This document shows, one piece after another, positions 8,750-57,474 of a stretch of DNA of 64,000 nt. Position 1 is the first letter of the stretch; each line of letters starts with the position of its first letter. Origin of the DNA: Hahella sp. KA22 (GTDB lineage: Bacteria; Pseudomonadota; Gammaproteobacteria; Pseudomonadales; Oleiphilaceae); contig NZ_CP035490.1 in assembly GCF_004135205.1 (NCBI RefSeq), positions 4,321,644-4,385,643 of the forward strand. Reading direction: 5' to 3'. The notes below the pieces were generated by a model. It searched no databases. It was given only the letters and a program-made list of their open reading frames with translations, and had not been told where the DNA came from. The position numbers and the translations under genes are program-made.

Positions 8750-9280
8750 ATGCAGCGCCTCGCCATATGGGTTTTCGCCCTTGCCCTGCCCGGCTGTGCG
8801 GGACAAGGATACTCCAATACACACCGCCCCCATGTGGATATGGCGGTGCATCCCGCCTGGTATGACGGCGAGCGCATTTACTACATCACCACAGACGTCT
8901 CTGATCGGGATATGGCGGAGATGATGCAGGCCAATTACGCTCCCCGCTTGAGAGACGCAATTCCAGATTACCCTAAGCCGCCTCAGGTCCGCACCGTACT
9001 GGAAAGGGTCTACCGGGTCCGTAATGTCGACCAGCCCAGTATATTTCCCTCCGCGCCAAAGCCCTTAGGCTCGCAAAGCGTCAACATACAATACAGTCCA
9101 TTGTGGCTGATGTATGAAGTCGTCTGGAAAACGGGCGTCGCTCCTGTAGAGCTTAAATCCGAGGAACAGATTTTCGTGGCGGAGAGTCAGGGAAAGCTGG
9201 AGATACATCGCACCGACATTGTGGTGAACTGCCCTGTGGTGCGTTATCAGGGTAAGCGCATTGACCGCTATGAATGGTGA
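8750..9280 (+). CDS. Hypothetical lipoprotein
   Basis: 176 residues with a short lipoprotein signal (lipobox ALPGC, Cys16). The mature part starts with HVDMAVHPAWYDGERIYYI and has the motif SPLWLMYEVVW in the middle. ATG 8750 follows AAGGGAG; the upstream in-frame ATG at 8729 would put charged residues before the signal. I do not recognise a function. The gene starts 87 bases after the PCu(A)C gene on the same strand and may be co-transcribed. Confidence 0.72.
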   Translation: MQRLAIWVFALALPGCAGQGYSNTHRPHVDMAVHPAWYDGERIYYITTDVSDRDMAEMMQANYAPRLRDAIPDYPKPPQVRTVLERVYRVRNVDQPSIFPSAPKPLGSQSVNIQYSPLWLMYEVVWKTGVAPVELKSEEQIFVAESQGKLEIHRTDIVVNCPVVRYQGKRIDRYEW

Positions 9281-9285
9281 TCCGT

Positions 9286-10050
9286 TTATTCCAGCATGCC
9301 CGCCTGCGACTTCAACGCATCCATGTCCAGGATCTGTATTTCACCATAGGACGTGGCGATAAGCCCTTTCTGCTCCAGCTCCTTAAGTATCTGGTTAACC
9401 GTTTGTCTGGACACCCCCAGCATCATGCCCAATTGCTCCTGCTGAATGTGTATCACGCGTCGCGCCTGCCCGCTGAAGTCGCCATAACCTTCCGCCATCA
9501 CCACCAGCCTGCGCGCTAATCGCAGAGGCGCCGGCAGCAGGGTGGCGTCTTCCACCGCGCGAAACGCCAGGCGCAGTTTGAAGCAAAGCAGCACGCCGAA
9601 GTCCCGCCAGAAATGCGGCTTCGCCGCCAGCAGAGATTCCAGTCCTTTTTGCGACAAATGCAACAAGGTTGTCGGGGTTTCCGCCAAGGCGCTGTGAGTA
9701 CGGTCCAGTCTGTCAAACAGGGCGATTTCTCCGAACCAGTTGGGAGGCTCCACAAACGCCAGAATCGCCTCTTTGCCATTTTCATTGACGCCAGTGACTC
9801 TTAACGACCCTTTCACCACAGCGTAAATACCGGCGGGCTTGTCGCCGCGTCGAAACAGAAATTCCCCCGATCGAAGCGTCTTAATTTGCGCCAGATTCAG
9901 CAGGTCGGTCTTTAAATCTTCTGGAATAGCGCGAAACCAGGCTCCGCGGTTTAGCAGGTCGTAATACTCGTGGGTGGACGGCTTGTCAGGCATGGCGCAG
10001 CGCTTATTATTGTGGGGTGATGGCAATGAAATTTTGCGCGATTCAGGCAC
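9286..10050 (-). CDS. Crp/Fnr-family transcription regulator
   Basis: Up to 254 residues: cyclic-nucleotide-binding-like beta-barrel (about 40-155, with LRSGEFLFRRGDKPAGIYAV and GEIALFDRLDRTHSA) and a C-terminal Crp-type winged helix (LGMMLGVSRQTVNQILKEL). No FNR-type N-terminal cysteine cluster is present, so it is not an oxygen sensor of that kind. The ligand is unknown. The annotated start is GTG 10050; an ATG at 9993 (MPDKPSTHEYYD) is an equally plausible start and neither has a strong Shine-Dalgarno. Confidence 0.88.
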   Translation of the reverse strand: MPESRKISLPSPHNNKRCAMPDKPSTHEYYDLLNRGAWFRAIPEDLKTDLLNLAQIKTLRSGEFLFRRGDKPAGIYAVVKGSLRVTGVNENGKEAILAFVEPPNWFGEIALFDRLDRTHSALAETPTTLLHLSQKGLESLLAAKPHFWRDFGVLLCFKLRLAFRAVEDATLLPAPLRLARRLVVMAEGYGDFSGQARRVIHIQQEQLGMMLGVSRQTVNQILKELEQKGLIATSYGEIQILDMDALKSQAGMLE

Positions 10051-10193: not shown

Positions 10194-10613
10194 TTATTCC
10201 CCGCCGAACACGGAGGTCCAATAATGCGGATAACTGGCCGAGGACGTGCTCACTTTCTTCGCGCCCATTTCGGTGTACTCCGCTCCCATGATATTGGAGC
10301 AATGACCCGGGCTCTTCAGCCACCCAGCCATAACTTGCTGTGTAGACTCATAACCCGCTGCGATGTTCTCGCCTACGCGCCAGGAGTTATAGCCTTCCGC
10401 GCGAGTGCGATCGCCAACCTGCGAACCATCAGAACCGGTATGGCTGAAGAAGTTGTTGTTCACCATATCTTCAGTGTGCTTGGTCGCCGCGGCGCCCAGC
10501 TTACAGTTCCATACCAGAGGCTCTGCCGCCGGGAAGTAGGCTGAACCACAGTTACGGCCCTCGCTACGCGCTTTATTGTGCGCTTCCAGCAGGGCTTTTT
10601 GCGATTCAGTCAA
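10194..10613 (-). CDS. CAP domain, C-terminal part of a frameshifted protease-CAP fusion
   Basis: The CAP domain covers all 139 residues (LLEAHNKARS, NNNFFSHTGSDG, VGENIAAGYES, GWLKSPGHCSNIM, YWTSVFGGE). The nominal TTG start at 10613 is not a natural gene start: the same frame continues upstream through DPT-type repeats (...TNPDDCELTES) as far as the 8-bp repeat unit at 10834-10841. Adding one base there gives 10194-12472 as a single 760-codon frame. It is therefore best read as the C-terminal domain of the trypsin-like protein upstream. It is a close paralogue of the lipoprotein at 1901-2455. Confidence 0.8.
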   Translation of the reverse strand: MTESQKALLEAHNKARSEGRNCGSAYFPAAEPLVWNCKLGAAATKHTEDMVNNNFFSHTGSDGSQVGDRTRAEGYNSWRVGENIAAGYESTQQVMAGWLKSPGHCSNIMGAEYTEMGAKKVSTSSASYPHYWTSVFGGE

Positions 10614-12472
10614 CTCGCAATCATCTGGATTAGTAGGGTCTGTGGGATCTGTAGGATCGGTTGGATCTGTAGGGTCGGTTGGATCTGTGGGGTCGGTTGG
10701 CTCACCTGGCTCGTTAGGATCATTAGGGTCATTTGGATCTGTCGGAAATCCAGGATCGTCCGGATCGATTGGATCAGTTGGATCAGTTGGATCAGTTGGA
10801 TCAGTTGGATCAGTTGGATCAGTTGGATCAGTTGGATCGTTGGATCTGTTGGATCTGTCGGATCTGTCGGATCTGTCGGATCTGTCGGATCTGTCGGATC
10901 TGTCGGATCAGTTGGATCAGTTGGATCGGTTGGATCGGTTGGATCTGTCGGATCAGTTGGATCAGTTGGATCAGTTGGATCAGTTGGGTCCGTTGGATCT
11001 GTCGGATCAGTTGGATCGGTTGGATCTGTCGGATCAGTTGGATCGGTTGGATCGGTTGGATCGGTTGGATCGGTTGGATCTGTCGGATCAGTTGGATCGG
11101 TTGGGTCCGTTGGATCTGTCGGATCGGTTGGATCGGTTGGATCGGTTGGATCGGTTGGATCGGTTGGATCAGTTGGATCAGTTGGATCAGTTGGATCAGT
11201 TGGATCAGTTGGATCGGTTGGATCGGTTGGATCGGTTGGATCGGTTGGATCGGTTGGATCAGTTGGGTCCGTTGGATCAGTCGAGTCATCATCATAAGAG
11301 GCGGTCAACGTCACGCCGCTATAGCGCAAATAGCCGTGCAGCATGATGTGATACACGCCAGGTCTCACCACCAGATCGTCACAGACCTCTTCATTGCCAT
11401 TTTTGTAGGGACGGCAATCGTATTCGGTCAGGGTTGGATCTTCTTCCGCTCTGACGTACAGGTCAACGTCTCCACGACCGCCTTCGATCTTAACGGAAAG
11501 ATGCTTGGCGCCTTCAGGCACTTCAATGGTGTAGTACACCTTGCTGTCGGATACGCCGCTCAAATCGTCGATTGGCTTACCGTTGCCCAGCACATTATCG
11601 TCGTCGCCATCGCCATCATCGGGGCCGTCTGGATCATCCGGATCGCCGGGATCAGGCGTGTCGCCGCCGACATAGGAGGCTACCCAGTCTTTGAAGCTGG
11701 GCGCGGCGGTGTATACGCCGTATTTTCCTGGTCTTGCGCAACCATCGCCCCAGCTTACGATACCCAGCTGACGGAACTCGCCGGCCTGGTTAACAAACAA
11801 AGGACCGCCGGAGTCGCCCTGACAGGAGTCTTTCCCACCCTGCTCCAACCCCGCGCACAGGTTATAGTCATAGATAGCGCCGTCGCCGTAGGCCATGCGA
11901 CACTCATCGAGAGTCACTACCGGCACATCCACTTTCTGCAGGACGTCCGGAGAGCCGCCGCCTTCGCGCAATGCGCCCCAGCCAATCACTGTCACATCAC
12001 TGCCGGGCATAATGTCATTCGGGTCGCCCAGAGTAATACGGGTGTACTTCTCGTCCACTTTTTCCGACAGCTTCAGCAAAGCGATGTCATTTTCCAGAGT
12101 CTGTTCATTAAACTCCGGGTGATTGATCACCTCCACCACTTGGATTTTCTGTGCGTCGCGCATGTCGTTCTGATCGTGAAGACCGATGACGGCTTTGAAG
12201 CTTTCAGCGGAAATGCCGGCGGTACAGTGGGCCGCGGTGAGCACATAATAATCATCTATTACCGACGCGCCGCACCACTGGCCGCCGTTGTATTGCAGAT
12301 ACACCATAAAGGGAAATTCGCCCTCGGCGGCGTCTTCACCGCCGACGATCTTGGGCGTCAAATTGCGATATACGCTTAGATCTTCCGGCGCGCTTGGGTT
12401 CGCGTAGCTCGCGCCGCTAAAGGTGAGGCCGGCAATCATCCCTGCCAGCAGGTTCTTTTGAAACGGTTTCAT
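10610..12472 (-). CDS. Secreted trypsin-like serine protease with PPC domain and DPT repeat; frame lost in the repeat
   Basis: 620 residues as it stands. Signal peptide (about 1-24), S1 protease with activation site IVGG at 42-45 and catalytic triad His82 (TAAHC), Asp129 (ENDIALL) and Ser221 (GDSGGP), then a Pro/Asp-rich linker, a bacterial pre-peptidase C-terminal (PPC) domain (about 293-395) and about 50 DPT repeats. After the short unit at 10834-10841 the frame turns into an IQL repeat and stops at 10610, while the true frame runs on into the CAP domain. Secreted by the general pathway, probably with type II export. The PPC domain resembles that of the M28 aminopeptidase at 29245. Confidence 0.9.
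   Translation of the reverse strand: MKPFQKNLLAGMIAGLTFSGASYANPSAPEDLSVYRNLTPKIVGGEDAAEGEFPFMVYLQYNGGQWCGASVIDDYYVLTAAHCTAGISAESFKAVIGLHDQNDMRDAQKIQVVEVINHPEFNEQTLENDIALLKLSEKVDEKYTRITLGDPNDIMPGSDVTVIGWGALREGGGSPDVLQKVDVPVVTLDECRMAYGDGAIYDYNLCAGLEQGGKDSCQGDSGGPLFVNQAGEFRQLGIVSWGDGCARPGKYGVYTAAPSFKDWVASYVGGDTPDPGDPDDPDGPDDGDGDDDNVLGNGKPIDDLSGVSDSKVYYTIEVPEGAKHLSVKIEGGRGDVDLYVRAEEDPTLTEYDCRPYKNGNEEVCDDLVVRPGVYHIMLHGYLRYSGVTLTASYDDDSTDPTDPTDPTDPTDPTDPTDPTDPTDPTDPTDPTDPTDPTDPTDPTDPTDPTDPTDPTDPTDPTDPTDPTDPTDPTDPTDPTDPTDPTDPTDPTDPTDPTDPTDPTDPTDPTDPTDPTDPTDPTDPTDPTDPTDPTDPTDPTDPTDPTIQLIQLIQLIQLIQLIQLIQLIQSIRTILDFRQIQMTLMILTSQVSQPTPQIQPTLQIQPILQIPQTLLIQMIAS
10628..11288 (-). repeat. 9-bp tandem repeat encoding Asp-Pro-Thr
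   Basis: The core unit on the minus strand is gatccaact or a close variant. About 50 nearly perfect units occupy 10834-11285, followed by a more degenerate stretch (DPN, DPD, EPG variants) down to about 10628. Unit variants form higher-order blocks, a sign of past duplication. One unit at 10834-10841 is 8 bp long and breaks the reading frame. All long ORFs in the other frames of this tract are low-complexity shadows. Confidence 0.95.
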
Positions 12473-53356: not shown

Positions 53357-54043
53357 TCAGCCGCTATCTCTGTAACGTTTTATTAACCTAATATCATCTT
53401 CATTTTGTTGTTTTTCAATCTCATGAGCTTTATCTATTGACTCCAATGAGTAGATGCAATTCAGAAGCTTTATTGTTGCATCGACTATTCCATTTAATTT
53501 AGCTTTCCCACCTATTAAGTCTATCTCTCCCCCAGACAATGCCACAACAACAACTAAAACAGATAAAGATCCTTTAAGGCTAACTTTCAAAGGGCTATTG
53601 TAATTAATAGATGTAATTGTCAGCTTATGGTACGAACTGGCTAACTTCCGATGATCAAAAATACTTATACGATTATCGTAAGACCGGTTCATGATCTGTG
53701 TGGCACTGTAACTTAGTGTCGGAGACTCAGTAATCACTCCCCGATCACAACCAAGTAACTCCTCTCGAACATACTGGCTAGCAGCAATATCTAGATGCTC
53801 ACAGGTCTTCTTACATAGTCTGGCAAGTTCATCCATTGATTCTAGAGGGCGATCTAATCGCTCTTGAATCTTGGGCTCTAAAAATAAAATCCCAGAGCCA
53901 GTATCAACAACTGCCCTAAGAGCTGCTCCATACACATAGGTAAAGGCGTTTAAAAAGAGCGTAAATTCCTCAGCATCAAAACCATCCGAGGACTCGGTGA
54001 AGTGAAGTGAGACATAGTCCAAGGTTTCGACTTTTGTCGCCAT
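53357..54043 (-). CDS. AT-rich hypothetical gene (possible moron)
   Basis: 228 residues. Mostly soluble; a hydrophobic patch at about 172-195 (SVLVVVVALSGGEIDLIGG) may contact a membrane. Starts MATKVETLDYVSLHFTESSDG after GGAGG with 7-nt spacing; longer in-frame starts lie inside the Q-like gene. Markedly more AT-rich than the phage genes around it, and not a recognised family: a candidate cargo gene inserted between radC and Q. Confidence 0.65.
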   Translation of the reverse strand: MATKVETLDYVSLHFTESSDGFDAEEFTLFLNAFTYVYGAALRAVVDTGSGILFLEPKIQERLDRPLESMDELARLCKKTCEHLDIAASQYVREELLGCDRGVITESPTLSYSATQIMNRSYDNRISIFDHRKLASSYHKLTITSINYNSPLKVSLKGSLSVLVVVVALSGGEIDLIGGKAKLNGIVDATIKLLNCIYSLESIDKAHEIEKQQNEDDIRLIKRYRDSG

Positions 54044-54131
54044 TAGCATTCCTCCATCCCGACAACATAAAACCAAATTAAATATAGCACCCACTTCAGA
54101 ATTTATGCTCAAACAGAGAAGTTTTAGTCTT

Positions 54132-54503
54132 TTAGCGATTTGCCAATGTGCCTGACGGAAAATGATGCTGAAGCAACCCCGACATAATGCATTCACCCAT
54201 TCTCAGCAACTCCCTGGCCGCCCCATAGCTCCGCCCTAAATCCCTGGCTATGACGCGGATCTCGCGCCGATCGATGTAAGCCCACTTAACCGCTTTACCC
54301 TCAAATGGTTGAACTCGGCTTAGAAGCGCCAAGGCCTTATCGACGATCAGCGCCTGGTCGTCTGTCAGCATTTCTGAGCCGTCGTATTCATCAAGAGGAG
54401 AATCTACTCGCTCATAACGCGGCAGCACGCCCCCAGCTCTCACCCAACGCCCGTATCGAACCAGCCAGTCCCGTGTAACATCCAGCAAGATTGAATCAGT
54501 CAT
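54132..54503 (-). CDS. Antitermination protein Q-like
   Basis: 123 residues matching the Phage_antitermQ pattern: LVRYGRWVRAGG early, then MLTDDQALIVDKALALL, then IRVIARDLGRSYGAARELL. Its position upstream of the lysis genes is that of Q. It would modify RNA polymerase at the late promoter to ignore terminators, which fits the terminators at 52184 and 43829. ATG 54503 follows GAGG. Assignment by motif and position. Confidence 0.7.
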   Translation of the reverse strand: MTDSILLDVTRDWLVRYGRWVRAGGVLPRYERVDSPLDEYDGSEMLTDDQALIVDKALALLSRVQPFEGKAVKWAYIDRREIRVIARDLGRSYGAARELLRMGECIMSGLLQHHFPSGTLANR

Positions 54504-54509
54504 ATTCAC

Positions 54510-54918
54510 CTCAGTTCCGTTCGTTCTTCCTTGCTTATTACTAATCCTTATAAAAAATATTTATGTGCAGAGTTTTAATTAAAATGTTCAGGGTTAACGG
54601 TTATATGTGCAGGGTTCGCCGAAAAATGTGCAGGGTACATATTCCGGCAAGCCACTGTTAACACTATACAAATCACTGTTACGTGCAGGGTGTGCAGGGT
54701 GTCGTCCTCGCGCATGGGAAGTAAAAAAAAGAATCAGGGGGGTAAGCTAGAACTACTTTTATAATCTCCCGCGTATGCGCGCCCGCGAGAACCCTGCACA
54801 CCCTGCACACGACTACCCAACACAATGATTTTAAAGAACAATTACATGTTAAAGGTTTGAACAAACCCTGCACATTTACGCCTAAACCCTGCACAAAAGA
54901 CACTTAACCCTGCACAAA
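54510..54918. repeat. Iteron-like array, candidate replication origin
   Basis: Eleven 10-bp sites TGTGCAGGGT, exact or with one mismatch. Four forward sites start at 54564, 54585, 54606 and 54627, every interval 21 bp. A forward pair starts at 54682 and 54691, a reverse pair (ACCCTGCACA) at 54791 and 54800, each 9 bp apart. Three reverse sites start at 54865, 54886 and 54907, again 21 bp apart. AT-rich DNA flanks the left array (54550-54585). It lies directly downstream of the primase-helicase stop. Phage origins commonly have such phased iterons; no initiator is known here. Confidence 0.75.
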
Positions 54919-57396
54919 TCAGAATGAATCATCCCTATGAAGCCCAGAGTCCTGTCTGAATTTGACGACGCAATTGCCTAACCATTGCTGCCGACTAATC
55001 GATCGATCATGACCATCCTCATCAACAACGAAGAACATATGCTGTCGAGCCGATATCGATGTGCCTTCAATGAACCGCTCGCGGGATTTTTGCTCTTTAA
55101 CCGACAGCAGCAGAGAGAACTTTGTCTGCGTCAGCGATCGTTCGCCCTCGCGGCTGCACCATCGCTTATAGACCTCATACAGGTCTGTCGTGATACAGCT
55201 CATATACGGAGCTTCCAACAGACCATCACGCCAAGCCTGATAGAACAGCTCAGTCCCGGATAAACCGAAGTGAATCAACCTGGCCTTATCGTCCGTCATC
55301 AGTGGTTTGGTGTGCTCATTAAAGCCTTTGGTGTTGTAGGCCAGCAGGTAGCCATAGAAGGCTTCGATGCCGCCGTTTTCCATTTCATTGCTGACAAGCT
55401 GCTGCAGGTGTTCCGGCAGTGTCGCCCGAGGCCACACTACAAGGAAACGACGATCGCTAGGCTCCAGGGGGAACGGCTGAAACTCGTTACTGAGAAATAT
55501 GCAGTTCATGTGGTTGGCTTCCTCCCAGCCCGACACGAACTTTTTCTCGATGCGCTGCGTCTTACCGGTAATCATATGCTTAATGGTGCCAAGGTGCGCA
55601 TATTTCTGGTCTCGGCTTAACACCTCTTCGAATACCGCGAATAACAACCGGTCCCGCCAATCCGTGTACTGGGATTCCAGCTGATGCTGCCCCAACACCG
55701 CGGCATATTTACCATAGAGCTGCCGGCAGATATCGGCAAACAGCAGCGACTTGCCCGAGCCGTGAACATCAGAATGAAACATCAGCGCCGTGTCCATCTT
55801 CGCGCCGACATTCTGGATCGGATAGGCAAGCCACTTCATAACCCAATCGATGACGTCCACGTCATCATTACACAGCCACCTGATCAGCTCCCGGATTGCG
55901 TCGCAGCGCCAAAATTCCGATTTGGGCGACGGCTTATGCGGCAACCCTTCGAAAATGTTGATGTGTGTTTTGGGGTCCGCGGTCATCGTCGGATCAAACA
56001 CCAGGCGATCAGAATCAACCTGGCGTCGTTGCGGATGCTTCAGCCACCAGTCGTAATCGTTCGGCATGGCCGCACGCAGGTTTTCCAGGGGTATTCGATC
56101 CTTGCGCTCCGTGTCCCAGGCGTCCTTGGTTGGGTAAATGTACACGTAGCGCTGAAGTATACGAAGGTCGCCCCCCTCCCCCCCGTTTTGAATGGCGGCG
56201 ACGTCGGCGCGGGTAATCACCCGCCGGCGCTCATGCTCTTTCCATTCGTTGTAGATCGACTTCCCGATCAGCTCGACAAACGCCGTCTTTTTGATCTCTC
56301 GGCGCTCCTGACAGTCCCAAAACTTAGTCTCGCCGGCGATGAGCGCATAGCGGTTAAGCACCTGCTCCAGATCGATGCTGACCACTTCACCATTCGCGCG
56401 CGACTCTTCCTCTAATGGGGGTGCGGGGGAAGCCGCGGCCAAGTTAAGTTCAGGGTTACTGAGAACGCCCGTCATTTGATGAGAGATAACATCAAGCCCT
56501 CTGACCAAATGCACATCGTTGTAGTCCAGCTTGGGGAAGTCTGGACGGAGACATTCGGGCATGCTCTCAATATCAGGGACGGTAGCAATAGCTCCCAATT
56601 CCTGCGCCGCCGCGATCGCCGCTGCTTTGCCTGGGTTATCCTCCGAACTGGCGTCATTATCCCCGGCAATGATCAACTGCACGTCGGGACGCAACTCACG
56701 TATGGCCTGCGCCGCCGGCAGCAGATTGCCACAATCAAACGCCACCAGCACCGGCCACTCGGTCGCCATATGCAATGAGGCCCCTGTCGCGTACCCCTCG
56801 CAAACTATCAGCGGACAGTCCGGATCAATCTTTCCGATTAAATGCCCCGCCCCTTTCTTGGACGTGCCCGTGAGAAACTTCTTACCGCCTTCAGAGTTGA
56901 TAAACTGCAGGCCGGTTAACACGTCGTCAGCAATGCGTCGTACAGGCACAACGACTGAACCGCGCGTATATCTCACCCCGAAGCCGGCGACGCCCTTATT
57001 GGAGAGGTACGGAGAGGCGCCGGAAAGCGGGAGCCCTTCCCATATCTGCGCAGATCTACGGCGAACCTTTTCCCGACTCGCTTCCTCTTTCGCGTCCATT
57101 TCAGCACGCCGCCGATCCAGGAAGGACTTACGCACTTCGCGTAACTCATCCTTGGACATAGCGGGATCGCTGATGTCGAAATAGAGGGTTTTATCGTCTA
57201 TGGATTGATTGCCGAAACGGCCTTGATAGGACTCTTTGCCAGAGTCAGCGGTGATTTTAAAGCAGATATACCAGCCAGATTTTTTGCCTCGACGGTCTCC
57301 GTCGACAGGACAAAGCACCAGGTCGCCGGACGTGTCCAGACTGTCAACAACCAGGCCGGCAGACCGTAACCGGTCTAACACCTCGTCAATGAGCAC
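54919..57396 (-). CDS. Phage replication primase-helicase
   Basis: 825 residues from GTG 57396 (an in-frame TTG at 57450 is the longer alternative, but AAAGGGGG precedes 57396 at good spacing). An N-terminal zinc-like/Toprim region has LIVCEGYATGASLHMA and LIIAGDNDASSEDNPG. A C-terminal superfamily 3-type helicase core (DUF5906-like) has Walker A HSDVHGSGKSLLFAD (about residue 545). Primase and helicase are joined on one chain, as in many temperate siphophages. The iteron array begins at its stop codon. Confidence 0.85.
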   Translation of the reverse strand: MLIDEVLDRLRSAGLVVDSLDTSGDLVLCPVDGDRRGKKSGWYICFKITADSGKESYQGRFGNQSIDDKTLYFDISDPAMSKDELREVRKSFLDRRRAEMDAKEEASREKVRRRSAQIWEGLPLSGASPYLSNKGVAGFGVRYTRGSVVVPVRRIADDVLTGLQFINSEGGKKFLTGTSKKGAGHLIGKIDPDCPLIVCEGYATGASLHMATEWPVLVAFDCGNLLPAAQAIRELRPDVQLIIAGDNDASSEDNPGKAAAIAAAQELGAIATVPDIESMPECLRPDFPKLDYNDVHLVRGLDVISHQMTGVLSNPELNLAAASPAPPLEEESRANGEVVSIDLEQVLNRYALIAGETKFWDCQERREIKKTAFVELIGKSIYNEWKEHERRRVITRADVAAIQNGGEGGDLRILQRYVYIYPTKDAWDTERKDRIPLENLRAAMPNDYDWWLKHPQRRQVDSDRLVFDPTMTADPKTHINIFEGLPHKPSPKSEFWRCDAIRELIRWLCNDDVDVIDWVMKWLAYPIQNVGAKMDTALMFHSDVHGSGKSLLFADICRQLYGKYAAVLGQHQLESQYTDWRDRLLFAVFEEVLSRDQKYAHLGTIKHMITGKTQRIEKKFVSGWEEANHMNCIFLSNEFQPFPLEPSDRRFLVVWPRATLPEHLQQLVSNEMENGGIEAFYGYLLAYNTKGFNEHTKPLMTDDKARLIHFGLSGTELFYQAWRDGLLEAPYMSCITTDLYEVYKRWCSREGERSLTQTKFSLLLSVKEQKSRERFIEGTSISARQHMFFVVDEDGHDRSISRQQWLGNCVVKFRQDSGLHRDDSF

Positions 57397-57474
57397 CCCT
57401 ACCCCCTTTATGCAACGTGCGGTTGTGTTCTGTTCGTTTTTCGCACACAATGAAGCCCTCTTAAGTGAGAAATT

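Follow-up and report, generated by a model that had tools for sequence, protein, structure and literature searches.

Directly behind the primase-helicase gene of a prophage in Hahella sp. KA22 lies an array of 10-bp sites in two mirror-oriented arms, which raises the questions of what such an array does and which protein reads it. The window, that is the whole stretch of 64,000 nucleotides analyzed here, had been described in an initial annotation made from the letters alone, which proposed a novel iteron origin beside the primase-helicase gene and named a partition centromere and a multi-site operator as alternatives. The answer given below draws on the array itself, on its counterparts in related phages, on natural pairs of phages that differ in their iterons, and on the comparison with known origins.

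The array and its prophage setting

The eleven-site layout given in the initial annotation was confirmed at all positions (Table 1). The array spans 54564–54916 and comprises eight exact sites and three with one mismatch: four forward sites start 21 bp apart and are followed by a forward pair 9 bp apart, and past the 90-base gap a reverse pair 9 bp apart is followed by three reverse sites that again start 21 bp apart. The paired ends of the two inner mirrored pairs sum to 109491 and those of the three outer pairs to 109501, hence the inner and outer pairs have different centers, with a total offset of 10 bp between the left and right arms. The window phage has six and five clear sites per arm, as compared to a 6+6 form; the doubtful twelfth site in Table 1 was called at a lax threshold only and is absent at a stricter one.

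Matches to the 10-mer TGTGCAGGGT with at most two mismatches number 73 in the window, compared to a mean of 52.3 and a maximum of 70 in 100 shuffles. Scatter of the 10-mer over the host genome, which had been named in advance as fatal to the origin proposal, does not exceed chance: the 6.96-Mb genome, a single contig, contains 21 exact copies, eight of them in the array and 13 single and scattered, and about 13 are expected on both strands. In an 8-mer clustering scan over 254 scan windows, each of 500 bp, the mean score is 3.3 and that of the array is 10; higher values occur only over a 9-bp tandem repeat at 10626–11281, inside a trypsin-like gene. This repeat (73 copies, 84% matches) overlaps a 620-aa trypsin/PPC-domain ORF at 10610–12472 and lies outside the identified prophage genes. 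An Rfam search of 54400–55000 returned zero matches at gathering thresholds, and GC skew over the window has no turn at the array, gene direction dominating the signal.

Table 1. Coordinates of the array, its core and the adjoining gene in the window.
Feature	Position	Strand	Basis
Iteron TGTGCAGAGT, 1 mismatch, arm distal to primase gene	54564..54573	+	site search
Iteron TGTTCAGGGT, 1 mismatch	54585..54594	+	site search
Iteron, exact TGTGCAGGGT	54606..54615	+	site search
Iteron, exact TGTGCAGGGT	54627..54636	+	site search
Inner iteron CGTGCAGGGT, 1 mismatch	54682..54691	+	site search
Inner iteron, exact TGTGCAGGGT; sixth site of distal arm	54691..54700	+	site search
Core between arms, 90 bases, presumed opening/loading region	54701..54790		function inferred
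TTCCCATGCGCGAGG, window copy of TTTTCTCACGCGAGG-like element, 10/15 letters	54706..54720	-	motif scoring
13-nt purine-pyrimidine alternating CG/TA tract, primase side of core	54770..54782		sequence
Inner iteron, exact TGTGCAGGGT, arm adjoining primase gene	54791..54800	-	site search
Inner iteron, exact TGTGCAGGGT	54800..54809	-	site search
TGTTAAAGGT, 3 mismatches, doubtful candidate for a degenerate twelfth site in flipped orientation	54847..54856	+	lax caller threshold
Iteron, exact TGTGCAGGGT	54865..54874	-	site search
Iteron, exact TGTGCAGGGT	54886..54895	-	site search
Iteron, exact TGTGCAGGGT, 2 bp from primase stop codon	54907..54916	-	site search
Primase-helicase gene, 843 aa, presumed initiator	54919..57450	-	family search, model
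C-terminal 105 residues of primase-helicase, presumed iteron-reading domain	54922..55236	-	winged-helix model

Family searches identified the region as a prophage, with a lambda-type portal, terminase gpA, Nu1, an amidase, an S24-type repressor, a RadC-like protein and a Q-like antiterminator. Just beyond the Q-like gene, a 279-aa ORF (53357–54196) has no Pfam match at E 0.01, and its shorter form has no PHROG match. The array begins 2 bp past the stop of the primase-helicase gene, the product of which carries a Toprim_3 domain (residues 214–318) and a DUF5906 helicase domain (residues 559–668). A structure model of the 545-aa helicase part (mean pLDDT 82) matches the C-terminal region of NrS-1 (6k9c, E 2.6e-16), the SaPI5 primase-helicase (7ola, E 3.3e-8) and also the poxvirus D5/E5 helicases, and these domains and matches together mark the protein as a D5/SF3-like AAA+ helicase of the kind looked for in an initiator. 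The last 105 residues, modeled alone (pLDDT 86.9), consist of two helices, a two-strand wing and a final helix, and are predicted to form a winged helix. On its own, this C-terminal model found nothing significant in Foldseek against PDB folds (best E.24), and the C-terminus had no significant match to P4 alpha by hhalign (probability 6.9%, E.0053), to 7ola of SaPI5 by sequence (E.025), or to P4 1ka8 by fold or profile. Among the best 80 of 116 from GTDB genomes, Hahella sp. HN01 has the nearest relative, at 98% over all of the 545-aa query. In several relatives, such as L005, L051, and L062, the helicase ORF is about 550–585 aa long and the Toprim part is not in the same frame, so that two genes may encode primase and helicase separately.

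Layout and iterons in relatives

In total, 157 loci were examined, namely 77 from IMG/VR, including the window (a protein search yielded 79 loci from the best 80 of 368 candidates), and 80 from GTDB genomes (alignment search, best 80 of 116, mostly Pseudomonas); L004, L036, and L060 were dropped because too little sequence follows the gene. Sites were counted with a de novo caller that had no prior knowledge of the iteron and that, by its design, is expected to yield about 0.25 false sites per region, the site matrices being trained on the same sites that they score. Extra sites from an earlier de novo caller with a lax threshold were excluded from the counts, as were isolated called sites 120–165 nt after the stop and all sites beyond 345, and array positions in L039 refer to the stop codon of the second ORF inserted there. 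At least eight iterons lie between -20 and +345 of the primase stop at 156 of the 157 loci, the exception being L058, where three weak sites follow an inserted small ORF. Six is the commonest count per arm: 69 of the 157 arrays are 6+6 and 48 more are 6+5 or 5+6, while among 75 representatives (<90% C-terminal identity) the 6+6 form occurs 29 times, and of the 150 arms 86 have six sites and 43 have five. In control windows from the same loci (n = 122), seed scores average 3.2 and peak at 5.5, a value that is exceeded by 152 of the 157 arrays and equaled by those of L059, L064, L152, and L153, with L058 at 2.5.

The 77 IMG/VR-derived arrays, including that of the window, fall into 16 similarity clusters, hence the layout is common to arrays with little sequence likeness. 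The sequence of the iteron varies between phages, whereas the layout of the array persists; consensus iterons include TGTGCAGGGT, TATACAGGGT, TGTGTTGGGT, ACGCCACAGGT, TGGCACGGGT, TGCCCAGGGT, TGGTTAAGGGT, GGCCGGAGGG, and AAGTTGAAG, and an end in GGGT or GGT is common to many of them. Throughout the family, same-strand neighbors are mostly 8–9, 10–12, 19–22 or 42–44 bp apart, and same-strand distances within arms (n = 1330) have a period of 10.75–11 bp, with a mean resultant of.59 that is given without a null model. The 21-bp phasing can thus be regarded as one version of a helical-phase rule: the exact spacing stressed in the initial annotation applies to the window phage and its close relatives, but not to the family as a whole, in which other distances occur. 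Four published phage records, three from Pseudomonas and one from Moraxella, were compared as well; pAN, LPPA56, and Lodos have 12 sites each and Mcat9 has 8 in a weaker set; the examined stretches of these records carry no annotated origin.

A second ORF with the C-terminal domain of the primase is present at three of 160 loci (L003, L039, and L058). In L039 (7497–7958) and L058 (7527–7979), the domain recurs in diverged form in a small ORF located between the primase gene and the array. In L003, an ORF about 1.5 kb past the primase (9070–9762) encodes a Rha-like N-terminus (phrog_518) followed by the domain, in a copy that matches the one in the window at 59%; this fusion is possibly an iteron-binding regulator or a decoy. 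A close-relative search of IMG/VR for further Rha-type fusions returned only L003's own contig.

The probable reader of the iterons

The identity of the reader can be approached through phages that are nearly alike except in their iterons. The window and L003 have helicase cores that are 99% identical, while their last 69 residues are 60% identical and their iterons are TGTGCAGGGT and ACGCCACAGGT, respectively. Their DNA is 94.6% alike until 166 nt before the primase stop, after which there is no match of at least 60 bp until 372–407 nt after the stop, beyond the array, whereas in the control pair of the window and L083, which have the iteron in common, the DNA is alike throughout. In L006 and L084, the cores are 97% identical and the C-termini 38%, yet the arrays can be aligned: the iteron letters change from GTGCAGGG to ATACAGGG-like at most sites, and the sequence between the sites is kept. 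The product of the next gene, the Q-like protein, is identical at 109 of 123 residues (89%) between the window and L003 and at 106 of 106 (100%) between L006 and L084. Since the C-terminus and the iterons differ while the next gene is nearly constant, the winged-helix segment at the C-terminus of the primase, rather than the neighbor, most likely reads the iterons, as judged from sequence.

Pairs of loci, which are not independent of one another, were compared with L058 and L039 left out. In 718 pairs with core identity of at least.85 and C-terminal identity of at least.80, iteron identity is never below.89. In 188 pairs with the same core threshold and C-terminal identity below.65, it is at most.82 in 12 (L003 with the window and L083; L077/L079; L067 and L073 with L087; L005–L007 with L008 and L084; L146/L162), while in the other 176 the iteron is the same or nearly so (at least.88), nearly all of them being within the Pseudomonas GTGTTGGGT group. 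C-terminal divergence alone is therefore insufficient for a change of iteron. As the window and L005 also have their iteron in common despite 29% C-terminal identity, overall identity says little, and a small number of contact residues must be decisive. In partial Mantel tests, the C-terminus given the core reaches.27 and the core given the C-terminus.18, both with p about.001, so that the test by itself fails to single out the C-terminus.

These pairs also bear on the idea that the array serves the downstream Q-like gene (54132–54509) as a multi-site operator or for antitermination, bound by the product of that gene or by another regulator. The Q-like gene adjoins the array, and a similar small HTH-type gene was seen by eye in many of 20 relatives, but in some of the same 20 other genes lie downstream of the array (also by eye), and an operator of the Q-like gene was rejected because its protein is 89–100% identical where the iterons differ, which leaves this explanation very unlikely. 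Slightly less probable again is that the same sites are bound by the primase-helicase, or by an OBD-like paralog, mainly for control of its own synthesis or of copy number, with initiation taking place elsewhere. The second C-terminal-domain ORFs in L003, L039, and L058 would be in line with this, as would the fact that P4 has a separate copy-number protein, Cnr; however, such ORFs are rare among the loci, and the array lies downstream and not upstream of the primase gene. In addition, SaPI and PICI origins of the same plan drive plasmid replication (PMC6092414, PMC7581432). Neither of the alternatives named in the initial annotation finds support in these comparisons. Weakest of all is a partition centromere of an extrachromosomal prophage, for which phased repeat arrays are indeed typical, but which was discarded because no Par-type family was found among the 10 neighboring ORFs scanned, the position of the array is tied to the primase gene at 156 of 157 loci, and the iteron letters track the primase C-terminus.

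A probable phage origin of the pri-rep-ori type

The core between the arms would be the likely site of melting, rather than the AT-rich outer flank to which the initial annotation pointed. Averaged over the family, the AT content of core deciles ranges from.18 to.72, compared to.43 for the locus, with its peak in the middle and distal part; the core of the window has.49, as do its surroundings (.49), and its best 30 bp reach.63. The cores of the 75 representatives were compared with shuffles of single bases: they contain 4.0 CGCG per core (.4 in shuffles), their longest purine-pyrimidine alternation has a mean of 17.2 nt (6.8 in shuffles), and alternation reaches 12 nt in 63 of the 75 (1.5% of shuffles), being located on the initiator side. 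Z-DNA formation by this alternating tract is a guess based on its letters. A TTTTCTCACGCGAGG-like element with at least 11 of 15 letters is present in 39 of the 75 cores, and on the other strand in 13 of 75, compared to 1.3% of shuffles, an excess that is partly circular since TTTTCTCACGCGAGG was picked by eye from the cores and then scored. The element ends 2–10 nt from the distal arm in 48 of the 75 cores, and the copy in the window lies 3 nt from it by the array caller.

Among known systems, P4 alpha resembles the primase-helicase of the window as a Toprim primase fused to a helicase, and a tblastn search with the latter retrieves it (27.5% over residues 47–270, E 1e-7); P4 crr lies just past the alpha gene, as the array does past the primase gene. 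In the P4 record, ori1 consists of six annotated type 1 repeats, the fourth of which is flipped, and 71 of 91 six-site proximal arms have this strand pattern (27 among representatives). The spacing of these 71 arms differs from that of ori1 by a summed 3–12 bp (median 8), and random spacing comes within 10 in 0.4% of cases. This hints that one arm may equal one P4 ori1, although the 71 arms are mostly from related Pseudomonas phages and the polarity of the P4 repeats cannot be fixed relative to the iterons, so that homology of the arms is only suggestive. P4 differs in that ori1 and crr are about 4.6 kb apart and in that crr consists of two tandem copies instead of mirror arms. A P4-like phage satellite was ruled out by the packaging and capsid genes (lambda-type portal, terminase gpA, Nu1). 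The origin of phage lambda, like the array, is a phage origin of iterons with a central region; the lambda iterons form part of the O gene, and it is the host helicase that O recruits, whereas the array lies outside the primase gene, whose product has a DUF5906 helicase of its own, and a lambda-type origin was dismissed on these two grounds.

The pri-rep-ori of Gram-negative PICIs and of SaPIs, compared by description, also has an origin directly 3' of the initiator gene with two iteron sets around a core, and both features are found in the window. The C-terminal domain reads the origin in these elements, and Rep is thought to bind as two hexamers (PMC6092414, PMC7581432). In Gram-negative PICIs, two iteron sets are always found around an AT-rich region directly 3' of the initiator gene, and the origin segment drives plasmid maintenance in E. 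coli (PMC6092414). PICIs and SaPIs are satellites, whereas the prophage in the window has portal, terminase and lysis genes, and the AT-rich core of PICIs is clear on average in the family of the window, but not in the window phage. Cch2 of SCCmec, a D5-type helicase with a putative origin, has a C-terminal domain that in isolation binds to direct repeats past the end of its gene, but there are only three iterons and no mirror arms of six (PMC7581432).

The array is very probably the replication origin of a temperate phage, presumably read by the predicted C-terminal winged helix of the adjoining primase-helicase, and two facing hexamers would load across the core. This reading is the best supported because the same gene precedes the array at 156 of 157 loci, the iterons change with the C-terminus, and place and layout are like those of P4, SaPIs, and PICIs. 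The primase-helicase would bind the iterons via its winged-helix domain, each arm collecting subunits on one face of the DNA, presumably one per site and hence six per arm in the commonest layout. By analogy, two hexamers would then assemble facing each other over the core, the core would open and the helicases would move onto the single strands, after which the fused primase would lay the first primers and replication would probably proceed bidirectionally. By the same analogy, the best reading is that the origin works like the pri-rep-ori of P4, PICIs, and SaPIs; the iteron origin proposed in the initial annotation is supported, but as a variant of an already known class and not as a new one.

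More tentatively, and with somewhat more room for doubt than for belief, these arrays may constitute a widespread class of origins of complete phages, with six iterons per arm, one for each subunit of two head-to-head hexamers, an asymmetric core, in which the alternating tract is on the initiator side and the TTTTCTCACGCGAGG-like element opposite, and modular specificity. In such a core, the CG/TG-alternating tract would be prone to form Z-DNA. Modular specificity would imply that between the window and L003 the winged-helix end and the array were swapped as one block, and that between L006 and L084 the iterons were rewritten in concert. In the full-text literature, outside of which most subscription papers lie, no description of such origins was found for complete phages with this primase. 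What looks new is the 6+6 form in complete phages, the natural changes of specificity, and the combination of a CG/TG-alternating tract with a ACGCGAGG-like element in the core.

A rule for annotation follows: where a primase gene of this kind is succeeded by about 330 bp without annotation, these probably represent the origin. The finding bears on two long-standing questions, namely the loading of ring helicases at an origin as a pair that face each other, and the way in which initiator and origin can jointly acquire a new specificity without loss of function. Both become testable with unaltered natural sequences, as near-identical natural enzymes with different reading domains each lie beside a matching array, and such sets of enzyme and array occur in many phages of Pseudomonas, Hahella, and their relatives. 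If the proposal is true, these natural pairs could yield a recognition code between initiators and origins.
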